Below are positions 41,382 to 49,210 of a DNA stretch of 64,000 nucleotides, one piece after another. Position 1 is the stretch's first letter; every line of letters begins with the position of its first letter. The position numbers and the translations under genes were made by a program. Location: the NCBI RefSeq assembly GCF_000021485.1, contig NC_011761.1, positions 526,001-590,000 of the forward strand, read 5' to 3'. This stretch comes from Acidithiobacillus ferrooxidans ATCC 23270. Its GTDB lineage: Bacteria > Pseudomonadota > Gammaproteobacteria > Acidithiobacillales > Acidithiobacillaceae. The notes beneath the pieces are model-generated. The model saw only the letters and a program-made list of their open reading frames with translations, ran no database searches and was not told where the DNA came from.

Positions 41382-42603
41382 GGCCGCCAAAGGCCCGCCC
41401 ATGAGCCCGTTCGAAAAGCGGGCGGTGGCGGGACTGAGCTTCATCTATGTCGCGCGCATGCTCGGTCTGTTCATGCTCATGCCGGTACTGGCCCTGGACA
41501 ACGACCAGCTTCGCCACAGCACCCCGGTGCTGTTGGGCCTGGCCATTGGCATCTACGGACTGGCCCAGGCCGCCCTGCAGTTTCCCTTCGGGGTGGCCTC
41601 CGACCGTTTCGGGCGCAAGCGGGTACTGGTCTTTGGTCTGCTGATCTTCGTCCTGGGTTCCCTGCTGGGGGCGGTCACCCACAACATCTGGGGCATCATT
41701 CTCGCCCGTCTGCTGCAGGGTGCGGGCGCCGTCTCCTCGGTGCTCCTGGCCACCGCAGGGGACCTCACCGGTGAACAGCACCGCACCAAGGCCATGGCCG
41801 CCATCGGCGGCAGCATCGCCATCGCCTATGTTCTGGGGATGGCGATGGGACCCGTCTTTTACGGTCTCTCCGGGCTGACCGGGGTATTTCTGGTAGCCGC
41901 CGCACTCGGCGTCCTTGCGCTATTACCGCTGTGGAAAGTGATTCCCCCCATCCCCCGCAATCTGCAGCAGCGCATGGGGAACTGGCGTGACGCCCTGAGG
42001 ATATTCAGATACCCCCCGGTTCTGACCGCCAGTGTCGGCATCTTCATCCTGCAGATGGTGCTGGGGGCCAGTTTTGTGGTGCTCTCCCCGGAACTGGTCA
42101 AGGCCATGCACATTCCGGGCAGCGCCGTCTGGGAAGTGTATCTGCCGGTGATGCTGCTCTCGGTGGCGGGCATGCTCTACCCGGTGATCCACGCCGAAAG
42201 GCACAGACAGCACGGACAGATGCTGGTCTTCAGTGGTCTTGCCATTGCTGCGGGAGCGTTGTTCATGGGTTTGCTCGCTGGTCACTTCTGGCCGGTGGCG
42301 GTAGGAGCGGTGATTTTCTTCACGGGTTATAACGTGGCCTCGGCGATTCTGCCCTCGATGATGAGCCGCAGCACCACCCAGGAACAGCGGGGGGCGGCCA
42401 GTGGTGTGTACTCGCTGATGCAGTTTCTGGGGATATTCGCGGGGGGTGTGGTCGGTGGCTGGGGGCTGGGCATGGCCGGCGAGCAGGGTGTCTTTTATCT
42501 CCTTGCCGTCGTCGGATTGCTCCTCGCCCTGCAAAGCTGGAACGGAAAACGCGTGGCACTATTGCTGGAACCGGACGCCCGGGAAGCAGGGGACGGTCAG
42601 TAG
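41368..42603 (+). CDS. MFS transporter, YajR-like
   Basis: A 411-residue major facilitator with 12 predicted helices. Motif A is VASDRFGRKRVLVFG between helices 2 and 3. The N-terminal LSFIYVARMLGLFMLMPVLA and general layout resemble the YajR group of drug/H+ antiporters. Some members have a C-terminal YAM domain; this one ends after helix 12. Substrate unknown. The start overlaps the end of cyoE by 14 bases, implying co-transcription with the oxidase genes. Confidence 0.83.
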   Translation: MASSEAAKGPPMSPFEKRAVAGLSFIYVARMLGLFMLMPVLALDNDQLRHSTPVLLGLAIGIYGLAQAALQFPFGVASDRFGRKRVLVFGLLIFVLGSLLGAVTHNIWGIILARLLQGAGAVSSVLLATAGDLTGEQHRTKAMAAIGGSIAIAYVLGMAMGPVFYGLSGLTGVFLVAAALGVLALLPLWKVIPPIPRNLQQRMGNWRDALRIFRYPPVLTASVGIFILQMVLGASFVVLSPELVKAMHIPGSAVWEVYLPVMLLSVAGMLYPVIHAERHRQHGQMLVFSGLAIAAGALFMGLLAGHFWPVAVGAVIFFTGYNVASAILPSMMSRSTTQEQRGAASGVYSLMQFLGIFAGGVVGGWGLGMAGEQGVFYLLAVVGLLLALQSWNGKRVALLLEPDAREAGDGQ

Positions 42604-43430
42604 CCGCCGATGATCAGTGCCAGCGCACCAAAGGCGATGCAATAAATACCAAAGGGCCGCAGTGCCTTGATCTCATGCTTGTGAAAATAGTGCATCAGAA
42701 ACCATACGGATGCCCACGCGCAGATTCCGGAGAGAAGCCCCGCAAGAAAGATGGTGCCGAGCAACCCGGACGGCATCTGTGCGTGAAAGAGCTTGGGCAC
42801 TTCCAGCATGCCGGCCGCCGCGATGATCGGCGTGGCGAGCAGAAAGGAAAATTTTGCGGAATTTTCATAGTCCAGCCCCACACCGATACCCGCCACCAGG
42901 GTCGCGCCGGAACGGGAAAATCCTGGAATCAACGCAAGGGACTGGGCAAACCCTATACCGATGGCACGCGGCCAGCTCAGGTTGTCCAGCGAATGGCTAG
43001 GTTGCCGCGCGCGCAGGCGATCCCCCAGGATGAGCATGATGCCGTTGATCATCAGCGCCACTGCGGCAAAGGTGAAGCCGCCGAACAGGGCCTTGATCTT
43101 GTGGGCAAGGGCGAGGCCCAGCAAACCGGCGGGAATGGACGCGATGAAGAGAATCCATAACAGCCGGGAGTCAGGATTGTCGGGGCGTCCCCGCGCACGA
43201 ATGAAACCGCCGAGCAGTGCCGCCCAGTCGCGCCAGAAGAACAGGAGCAACGCCGTCGCCGTGGCAAGGTGGAGCACGACCACAAAGGGCAGAAACCATC
43301 CTGCGTCCCGGTTGATGGGCCAATGCAGGAGCGCTGGCACCAAAATGATATGCCCCAGGCTGGAGATGGGAAACAACTCCGTAACGCCCTGTAGTATGGC
43401 CAGGAACAGCAGGTAGATATGGTGTGTCAT
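42597..43430 (-). CDS. uppP: undecaprenyl-diphosphatase
   Basis: BacA/UppP family membrane phosphatase (277 residues, about eight helices) that recycles undecaprenyl pyrophosphate for peptidoglycan and other glycans. The two catalytic motifs are present: ELFPISSLGHIILVP near the N-terminus, the variant with Leu after the Ser pair, and GFSRSGATLVAG in the second half. Its 3' end overlaps the MFS gene by 7 bases. Confidence 0.94.
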   Translation of the reverse strand: MTHHIYLLFLAILQGVTELFPISSLGHIILVPALLHWPINRDAGWFLPFVVVLHLATATALLLFFWRDWAALLGGFIRARGRPDNPDSRLLWILFIASIPAGLLGLALAHKIKALFGGFTFAAVALMINGIMLILGDRLRARQPSHSLDNLSWPRAIGIGFAQSLALIPGFSRSGATLVAGIGVGLDYENSAKFSFLLATPIIAAAGMLEVPKLFHAQMPSGLLGTIFLAGLLSGICAWASVWFLMHYFHKHEIKALRPFGIYCIAFGALALIIGGY

Positions 43431-43441
43431 GCGATCATGAT

Positions 43442-43914
43442 CTATATGTAACGCACGGCAAGAATGGTGTATTCCCGTGTTCCGCCGGGGGCGCGCACTT
43501 CAACCGGATCGCCTTCATGCTTGCCGATGAGCGCGCGGGCAATGGGGGAACTGATGGATATCTTGTTTTCCTTGAGGTCGGCCTCGGCATCACCCACGAT
43601 CTGGTAGGTCACCTCGTTGCCTTCCGCATCTTCCAATTCCACAGTGGCCGCAAAAACGATTTTACCGCCGGTATTCAGTTGCTTGGGGTCGATGACCTGG
43701 GCACGGGCCAGATAATCCTCCACCTCACGGATACGTCCTTCGATAAAAGCCTGCTGCTCCTTGGCGGCGTCATATTCGGCATTTTCCGACAGATCACCCT
43801 TGGCGCGCGCCTCGGCAATGGCTTCAATCACCGTAGGGCGGTCAACGGTTTTGAGGCGATGCAACTCGTCGCGCAGCCGCTGGGCACCAATAACCGTCAT
43901 GGGAATTTTATCAT

Positions 43915-43918
<4 letters not shown>
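43442..43918 (-). CDS. greA: transcription elongation factor GreA
   Basis: Rescues arrested RNA polymerase by stimulating transcript cleavage. The 158-residue protein has the N-terminal coiled coil with the acidic tip ([20 protein letters not shown]) and the C-terminal FKBP-like domain ending in [17 protein letters not shown] 43918 overlaps the carB stop (ATGA). The carA-carB-greA order is common in proteobacteria. Confidence 0.97.
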
Positions 43919-47146
<3,228 letters not shown>

Positions 47147-47154
<8 letters not shown>

Positions 47155-48289
47155 GGTGACGGCCTCCGTACTGGTTCATGGCGTGAACGAAGTCGTCAAA
47201 AATTGCACGGGCGTCGTGGGGCCCGGGTCCGGCCTCAGGGTGGCCCTGAAAGGAAAATACGGGCAGCTCCCGATGCGCCATGCCCTGCAGGCTGCCGTCG
47301 AACAGTGAGGCATGGGTCGCCACCAGGCACTCCGGCAGGGTGTCCGCGTCCACCGCGAAACCGTGGTTCTGACTGGTGATCAACACCCGACCGCTGCGCA
47401 GGTCTTTGACCGGATGGTTGGCACCGTGGTGCCCGAACTTCATCTTGACGGTTTTGGCGCCCAGGGCCCGTCCCAGCAACTGATGCCCCAGACAGAGTCC
47501 GAAGGTGGGAATACCCGTGGCGATGACTTGGCGCATGGCCTCTTCCGCATAGCCGAGGGCCGCTGGGTCACCGGGACCATTGGAGAAGAGTATGCCGTCC
47601 GGGCGCAGGGCGATCACCTCGGCGGCCGCGGTGCGGGCCGGCACCACCGTGATTCGGCAGGCCCGATCCGCCAGCAGGCGCAGGATATTCCGTTTGGTGC
47701 CGAAATCGTAGACCACCACATGGCACTGTGTCCGGGTGACGGCCTGCGCGTGATAGCCCTGTTCGGGGGTGCCGCTGGCGAGATCCCAGGTGTATGCCTC
47801 CCGGCAGCCCACATCCTGCACCAGATCACGGCCGATGAGGCCTGGGAAAGCGCGCGCCGCAGCCAGGGCCTTCTCTTCGCTGGCCGCTTCTCCGACGAGG
47901 ACGGCAGCATTCTGAGCGCCGCTATCCCGCAGTCTGCGGGTCAGAGCGCGGGTGTCGATTCCCGCGATGCCGGGAATTCGATGGGTCTGCAGGAAGGAGG
48001 CCAGGTCCTGGGTGCTGCGCCAACTGCTGGGTTGCCGTGGCAGATTGCGCACGACGAGAGCGGAGCAGAATATCCGGGTACCTTCCATGTCCTCCGGGTT
48101 GACCCCGGTATTGCCGATATGGGGATAAGTGAGCGTGATGATCTGTCCCTGATACGAGGGATCAGAAAGGATCTCCTGGTAGCCACTCATGGCGGTGTTA
48201 AAACAGATTTCACCTGCTGCCAATCCGGTGGCACCAAAGCCTATACCGCGATAGATGCTGCCGTCTGCCAATGCCAAGACCGCCTGCAT
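47147..48289 (-). CDS. carA: carbamoyl-phosphate synthase small subunit
   Basis: Glutaminase subunit of 380 residues. The N-terminal half forms the CarA-specific domain ([15 protein letters not shown]). The C-terminal class I amidotransferase has the nucleophile region [13 protein letters not shown] and the catalytic His/Glu in [12 protein letters not shown] chose ATG 48289, preceded by GAGGTGG, rather than a longer frame to 48307. A terminator-like hairpin and strong promoter lie just upstream. Confidence 0.97.
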
Positions 48290-48315
48290 GCCCCACCTCG
48301 CCAACAAGAGGATGC

Positions 48316-48340
48316 AAAAAAAGGGAGGGGGTCCCCTCCC
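48316..48340 (-). terminator. hairpin plus T7 tract in the carA leader (possible attenuator)
   Basis: On the minus strand the sequence forms a stem from GGGAGGGG and CCCCTCCC (48340-48323), followed at once by seven T residues (48322-48316). This is the form of an intrinsic terminator. It lies between the carA promoter and the carA start, within about 15-35 bases of the expected transcription start. No minus-strand gene lies upstream that it could terminate. Confidence 0.6.
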
Positions 48341-48355
48341 ACGTAGATATCGCCT

Positions 48356-48384
48356 ATTCTAAGGACCGGAAGGGGAGTGGTCAA
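48356..48384 (-). promoter_or_regulatory. promoter of carA-carB-greA
   Basis: On the minus strand TTGACC (48384-48379), a 17-base spacer, then TAGAAT (48361-48356). It is the best sigma70-like match in the carA upstream region and places the start of transcription around 48349, immediately before the leader hairpin. Confidence 0.6.
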
Positions 48385-48523: not shown

Positions 48524-49210
48524 ATGGGTTGGATGCAATGGTCCGTGCTCGCCATGGGTGGCATGCTGATACTGGCGGGGTGTGCGACGACTACGACGAA
48601 CGGTATGTCGCCGCAGTCGCAAGGCATGGTGGGTAACTACCCGGCCTTTGCCGCAGCTCCATTGCCGCCTGCCCGCGTCACATCGGCACCGGTGCGCAGT
48701 GCGCCAGCCGTTGTTTCCCGCCCGCCCGCGCCTTCCATAACACCGCCCCCGGTTCGTTATTCGTCCGCCGCGCTGCCCTTGACCACCGTAGCGCCAGCCC
48801 TTCCCGCCGCACCGGCTATTCCGGCAGCGCCCTCCGCGGCGCAGACGCTGAGCGACGCCGGCACATCCTTTTCCGGTGCGTGGCAGGGGGATATGACCAA
48901 GGCACGGCAGGACAGCGCCCGGTGTGCGGCGATGTCGTCCGCTGCGCGGACGTCGTGTTGGCAGGATGTCTCCGCTTGGGCGGAGAAACGCGCGGCGCAT
49001 TATCAGGCACTCAGTACCCGGGCCACGGGTGCCCAGTCCCAGCAACTACAATCCGCAGCAAAGTTTTTCGGGGTAACCGGGGAGTGGGCCAGTGCCTGCA
49101 GTTCGATTACCTCACAGCAATGCGCCGAATCGCCACTCATCGGCAAGATGCAGCAATGGAAGGCTTCTGTAGGGATACCGGGGGCGGCGGTGACCATACC
49201 TACGCCCTGA
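48524..49210 (+). CDS. Pro/Ala-rich lipoprotein, function unknown
   Basis: A 228-residue predicted lipoprotein. The signal peptide ends in the lipobox LAGC. A low-complexity Pro/Ala/Ser linker (about 45-110) could span the cell wall. The C-terminal domain (about 115-220) has four to five Cys residues (SARCAAMSS, TSCWQD, ASACSS, QQCAES) that could form disulfides in the periplasm. AAGGAG precedes ATG 48524. I know no family for it. Confidence 0.65.
   Translation: MGWMQWSVLAMGGMLILAGCATTTTNGMSPQSQGMVGNYPAFAAAPLPPARVTSAPVRSAPAVVSRPPAPSITPPPVRYSSAALPLTTVAPALPAAPAIPAAPSAAQTLSDAGTSFSGAWQGDMTKARQDSARCAAMSSAARTSCWQDVSAWAEKRAAHYQALSTRATGAQSQQLQSAAKFFGVTGEWASACSSITSQQCAESPLIGKMQQWKASVGIPGAAVTIPTP

Follow-up and report, generated by a model that had tools for sequence, protein, structure and literature searches.

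A conserved terminator hairpin at the probable start of the carA-carB-greA transcript of Acidithiobacillus ferrooxidans, a likely minimal attenuator

The window comprised 64,000 nucleotides of the Acidithiobacillus ferrooxidans ATCC 23270 genome (NC_011761.1, positions 526,001 to 590,000), and all coordinates below refer to it. The gene order carA-carB-greA proposed in the original prediction was borne out by Pfam matches and by overlapping start and stop codons. The following genes were assigned.

47147..48289, minus strand: carA, carbamoyl-phosphate synthase small chain (PF00988, PF00117; start set by alignment of relatives)
43915..47154, minus strand: carB, carbamoyl-phosphate synthase large chain (PF02786, PF02787 and others; 8-nt overlap with carA)
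43442..43918, minus strand: greA, transcript cleavage factor (PF03449, PF01272; ATGA overlap with carB)
42597..43430, minus strand: BacA/UppP-family gene (PF02673; 11 nt past the greA stop)

From the gene overlap we infer that carA, carB and greA are co-transcribed. The BacA/UppP-family gene may be a further member of the operon, and the unit would then be longer than carA-carB-greA. The upstream neighbour (48524-49210) is divergent and matched no Pfam family. As originally stated, there is thus no upstream gene on the minus strand to terminate, and a role of the hairpin described below as terminator of an upstream gene was ruled out. The plus strand carries two long open frames, 44740-45876 (378 codons, antisense to carB) and 47312-48346 (344 codons, antisense to carA), which are probably by-products of codon bias.

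The region between the divergent gene and carA contained the following elements.

48356..48384, minus strand: sigma-70-type carA promoter TTGACC-17-TAGAAT (10/12 consensus match)
48341..48350, minus strand: probable start region (set by distance from the -10 box)
48323..48340, minus strand: terminator hairpin GGGAGGG-GACC-CCCTCCC (assigned by sequence, fold and conservation)
48316..48322, minus strand: T7 tract, expected 3' end of the terminated RNA (T5-T8 in 28/28 family genomes)
48294..48299, minus strand: carA ribosome-binding site GAGGTG (assigned by sequence; GAGGT kept in most relatives)

The promoter, the GC-rich hairpin and the seven T residues were verified letter by letter. The -35 box TTGACC lies at 48384-48379 and is separated by a 17-nt spacer from the -10 box TAGAAT at 48361-48356. 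The hairpin is made up of the 5' arm at 48340-48334, the loop GACC at 48333-48330 and the 3' arm CCCTCCC at 48329-48323. The T7 tract is followed by GCATC, by the ribosome-binding site and by the carA ATG at 48289. The stretch between the predicted promoter and carA has the architecture of an intrinsic terminator, namely a G+C-rich hairpin with an adjoining T tract. Transcription likely starts at the A at 48348 (or 48350), which leaves about 8 nt of RNA ahead of the hairpin (8-10 nt from presumed start to hairpin) and agrees with the distance of about 10 bases given earlier. An RNA terminated in the T tract would be about 31-33 nt long.

Folding of a 34-nt leader yielded a single hairpin that accounted for 93% of the ensemble (-14.8 kcal/mol). 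Compared with dinucleotide shuffles its energy had a z of -1.9 and 8 of 200 shuffles folded as well, so that energy alone is not decisive; the full long leader folded no better than its shuffles (z 0.10). The 3' arm CCCTCCC (48323-48329) is complementary to GAGG of the carA ribosome-binding site (48294-48299), and pairing within the terminator hairpin could leave this site accessible in read-through transcripts.

For an estimate of rarity, both strands of 444 kb of the same genome (the window and 19 stretches of 20 kb) were scanned with a strict terminator rule. This gave 14 terminators, two of which had a promoter-like pair 8-25 nt upstream: that of carA (10/12) and a weaker one (9/12). In a simple scan of 3 kb, terminator-like sites numbered 2 where 1.9 were expected, which by itself is no evidence. 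A second copy of the hairpin was not found in the genome, the sole exact pattern match being carA itself. At gathering score, Rfam reported one tRNA only in the window and had no match at the carA leader, either here or in 10 other loci. The decisive evidence that the leader is more than chance is its conservation in the family, not the scan or the fold energy.

Family genomes with readable sequence upstream of carA numbered 28 (17 of the genus, 10 others of the family and 1 more); where one contig of a genome (L113) had no upstream sequence, another contig of the same genome (L128) supplied it. A 29th genome (G027, 69% complete) had no carA match and is not part of the 28. Promoter, hairpin and T tract were kept in 28/28. 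Within the 17 genus genomes both promoter hexamers were invariant throughout, as were 14/14 stem letters and 6/7 positions of the T tract, compared with 5/17 positions of the spacer, 1/4 of the loop and just 3/55 upstream of the -35 box. The 11 other family genomes keep a promoter, GGGAGG...CCTCC(C/T) and T5-7 GCA. In all 28 the tract of T5-T8 is followed by GCA. The end of the -10 box was 12-15 nt from the hairpin in the 27 family leaders measured; with a start at the usual distance from the -10 box, no more than about 9 bases of RNA would precede the hairpin across the family. The original prediction had made its reading depend on conservation in relatives, which was thus found for both hairpin and T tract. 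The leader very probably contains a functional terminator. In a second Acidithiobacillus clade (L012-L018) an ATG stands at the hairpin foot (ATGCGGGAGGGG), in frame with carA and with the frame open. Translation could begin there almost without a leader and give a CarA extended at its N terminus, which is not possible in the clade of the window.

As a near-perfect inverted repeat with invariant letters, the element could also be bound by a repressor as a DNA operator (about +9 to +26). An operator is at odds with the spacing of the conserved arms, which varies within the family (6-7 nt) and varies more outside it, and with a T tract on one side only. Furthermore, loop and outer pairs change and pairing stays, although the hairpins were chosen for pairing and this is not independent proof. 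The operator was rejected on the variable arm spacing and is very improbable. Alternatively, the element might terminate partially without any regulation, or act as a stem that stabilises the 5' end, and would then only set a basal level or protect the mRNA. Such a role would suit a minimal leader in which no sensor part is visible. A stabilising stem needs neither the T tract nor the GCA, yet both were kept in 28/28. In addition, the available text of PMC4997734 describes a Pseudomonas reporter in which the stem-loop lowers expression and a decrease with uracil in the full-length fusion. An unregulated element is therefore improbable.

Outside the family, the two genomes of a sister family share this hairpin and T tract (GGGAGGGG...CCCCTCCCG, T5, GCATG), located 46-47 nt after the -10 box. 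The stretch ahead of the hairpin thus differs in length and the terminator stays. Among 75 other named gamma- and betaproteobacterial carA loci, a hairpin with T tract was located within 150 nt of carA in 31 (32 with a wider look); 44 had no carA leader terminator by the same rule. The background rate was 28/388 for other ORFs in the same loci and 25/375 for shuffles. Many of the hairpins read (A)CGGGA...TCCCG(T) or (A)GCGAGG...CCTCGC(T). A carA leader terminator was also present in 33 of 100 further genomes, which were picked by hand from the rows listed among 183 matching genomes, for the most part one from each family, with most matches near contig ends omitted; this set overlaps the named loci, and the two counts are not additive. 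Outside the family, 57 of 62 non-identical terminators had a promoter call, which in 46 of the 57 was 12-60 nt before the hairpin. The distance was 12-16 nt in four non-family cases, including L037 (Rhodocyclaceae) and L077 (Aromatoleum). These varied distances indicate that it is the terminator that stays constant and the sequence ahead of it that varies. In Marinobacterium (L040, L046, L078, L105) a leader of about 50 nt precedes an AGCGAGG...CCTCGCT terminator. These leaders carry an extra small inverted repeat (e.g. CCTGC...GCAGG), a possible sensor domain in long-leader forms.

The carA leader of Pseudomonas was used as the main comparison and is cited from the available text of PMC4997734. 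In P. syringae DC3000 (P32) there is a single promoter and a Rho-independent terminator before carA, with a 3' end mapped just behind it. Cutting the stem raised reporter expression, and the full-length fusion is reported to decrease with uracil. For P. aeruginosa the same text relates that the pyrimidine response is lost once the stem-loop is removed. By qRT-PCR, P. syringae showed no change with arginine plus uracil, a point against the analogy (PMC4997734). The likeness to the leader studied here consists of a terminator between promoter and carA and of an operon with greA (carA-orf-carB-greA in P. aeruginosa; P32 in P. syringae). Differences are that the hairpin starts at about +9 here and that the upstream gene is dapB there and a divergent gene here. 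As far as the Pseudomonas leaders are described in that text, kinship would rest on position and architecture, not on leader sequence.

The element is best explained as a promoter-proximal intrinsic terminator (attenuator) of carA-carB-greA, the Acidithiobacillaceae form of a widespread gamma- and betaproteobacterial carA leader terminator (probability roughly 0.65). That termination responds to pyrimidines is probable by analogy with Pseudomonas. The original prediction was of attenuation that lacks an obvious leader peptide, and this is the reading best supported, by the hairpin and T tract kept in 28/28 and by the same gene order with a leader terminator in Pseudomonas, as given in the available text of PMC4997734. 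The prediction had further held that the mechanism would differ from that of pyrBI; closer comparisons than pyrBI are Pseudomonas carA and the leader of E. coli greA (GraL).

The pyrBI mechanism, in which attenuation is coupled to ribosomes on a leader peptide, was nevertheless considered. According to the available text of PMC4997734 a carA leader peptide is made in P. aeruginosa, and the P. syringae DC3000 carA leader has no leader-peptide start codon. In the leader studied here no start codon with a ribosome-binding site was found upstream of the terminator. Only about 8 nt precede the hairpin, and a peptide is largely excluded by this length. A GTG at the hairpin foot has no ribosome-binding site ahead of it and is not conserved in the second clade, the only one with an in-frame ATG at the hairpin. 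The leader peptide was rejected for want of room and is scarcely credible in Acidithiobacillaceae. Because one is reported for P. aeruginosa, the mechanism need not be shared with the Acidithiobacillaceae leader.

With promoter-proximal attenuation, RNA polymerase would start near 48348 and form the hairpin at once. In some complexes transcription would end within the T tract, giving a free RNA of about 31-33 nt, and the remainder would read into carA, carB and greA. If Pseudomonas is a guide, a larger share of complexes should stop when the cell has ample pyrimidines. With 5-9 nt before the hairpin there is no room for a leader peptide or for an RNA antiterminator built upstream, and for this reason sensing probably takes place at the polymerase, through slippage linked to UTP, through the kinetics of termination or through feedback by GreA. 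The RNA polymerase footprint on RNA is about 14 nt. Hence about a dozen bases would be out of the polymerase when the 3' arm is completed, and a ribosome would be without room. The signal most likely acts on the polymerase within the terminator itself. Slow addition of UTP in a T tract ordinarily raises termination rather than lowering it, so plain kinetics gives the wrong sign for a pyrimidine response. Slippage driven by UTP, on the T tract ahead of the invariant G, would give the correct sign, with stuttering and release at high UTP and read-through at low UTP; as the sensor it is a speculative and unlikely candidate. UTP-sensitive reiterative transcription (E. coli carAB P1, pyrBI, codBA, upp), as described in the available text of PMC6245113, is alike in that a car operon is controlled at or near initiation and free of a peptide. 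It differs in needing a T run in the initially transcribed bases, whereas the T run here comes after the hairpin. Initiation of the carAB P1 type found no counterpart at the presumed transcript start (ATCTA), which has no homopolymer run.

A rival sensor is GreA. In this explanation the leader terminator serves greA, the third gene, as GraL does, and more GreA would cause more termination and less carA-carB-greA. As described in the available text of PMC6829880, the E. coli GraL terminator lies 19 nt after the start with about one third read-through, and GreA represses through GraL in cis; the sequences of +1-18 and of the hairpin both matter, and Hfq is not needed. The leader studied here is alike in having a promoter-proximal intrinsic terminator on a GreA-encoding transcript, as judged from the gene overlap, and the invariance of both hairpin arms in the 17 genus genomes is in keeping with such a role. 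It is unlike GraL, the hairpin of which is at +19 to +48 before greA itself (PMC6829880, available text), in that the Acidithiobacillaceae hairpin is before carA, shorter and nearer the start. Autoregulation by GreA through GraL was not reproduced in vitro, according to the same text, and the P. aeruginosa stem-loop was tied to pyrimidines, as related in the available text of PMC4997734.

The distribution of greA was compared with that of the terminator. The state of greA was judged in 75 of 80 named loci, five being too short. Terminator and greA were both present in 33 loci, greA only in 15 and neither in 27. All 33 loci with a carA leader terminator thus have greA behind carB, and none of the 27 greA-less loci has a terminator. 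The plain table gives a Fisher p of 6e-10, which is not counted as a test and is discounted because loss of greA from the operon is a single evolutionary event: the CarA tree shows one change in greA state, and an association of carA terminator and greA that amounts to one event is not statistically testable. The tree is a quick one with many open forks and a long-branch warning, and its drawing bears a greA mark for L043, the row of which is too short to judge and is outside the counts. In the wider sample greA was present in 94 of 97 judgeable genomes, and 64 of those 94 were without terminator by the same rule. Where greA stands separately, a terminator-like hairpin lay no more than 135 nt from greA in 10 of 27 leaders and in the E. 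coli control, and the rate for other ORFs was 28/388 (Fisher p 3e-5, overstated by relatedness of the genomes); an eleventh (L151, at -212) was set aside. In several of these (L156, L163, L165, L167, L173 and others) the terminator often stands 60-80 nt before the start codon, which resembles GraL. In the available text of PMC2965389, greA/rnk takes seventh place in the ranking of gene families that have leader terminators. The link between greA and the terminator is a lead, not a test, and GreA feedback as the explanation of the carA leader is unlikely. A wider conjecture is that the terminator itself is the sensor, where nothing apart from RNA polymerase and the factors on it (GreA, sigma, Nus) would be able to sense the signal and nucleotide pools or GreA would set read-through within the first 33 nt. 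The carA leader terminators and GraL would then be two sides of a single GreA/pyrimidine circuit that accompanied greA when it left the car operon. As a whole this conjecture is doubtful.

The carA motif SRC-12-1 (mostly Polynucleobacter) is likewise a structured leader directly before carA. In the available text of PMC8632094 it forms a long, imperfect hairpin immediately ahead of the ribosome-binding site, for which a role as a translational riboswitch is proposed; it is not described there as a terminator. A literature search on Acidithiobacillus carA or Acidithiobacillus small RNAs gave nothing relevant, and none on carA leaders beyond PMC4997734 added leader data. carA is never mentioned in the E. 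coli 3'-end paper PMC7815308 or, as a whole word, in the main text of PMC2965389, supplements aside. Most likely, the carA leader attenuator is of a known kind and is present here in an extreme short form. Within the literature searched, what the sequences add would be the minimal architecture, the family-wide conservation and the spread of similar carA leader terminators.

A natural leader that throughout the family consists of little more than promoter, 7-bp hairpin and T tract removes most candidate sensors, and so minimal a leader is amenable to a one-tube in vitro transcription assay. If GreA matters, carA attenuation and GraL, treated apart in the literature cited, would be joined.
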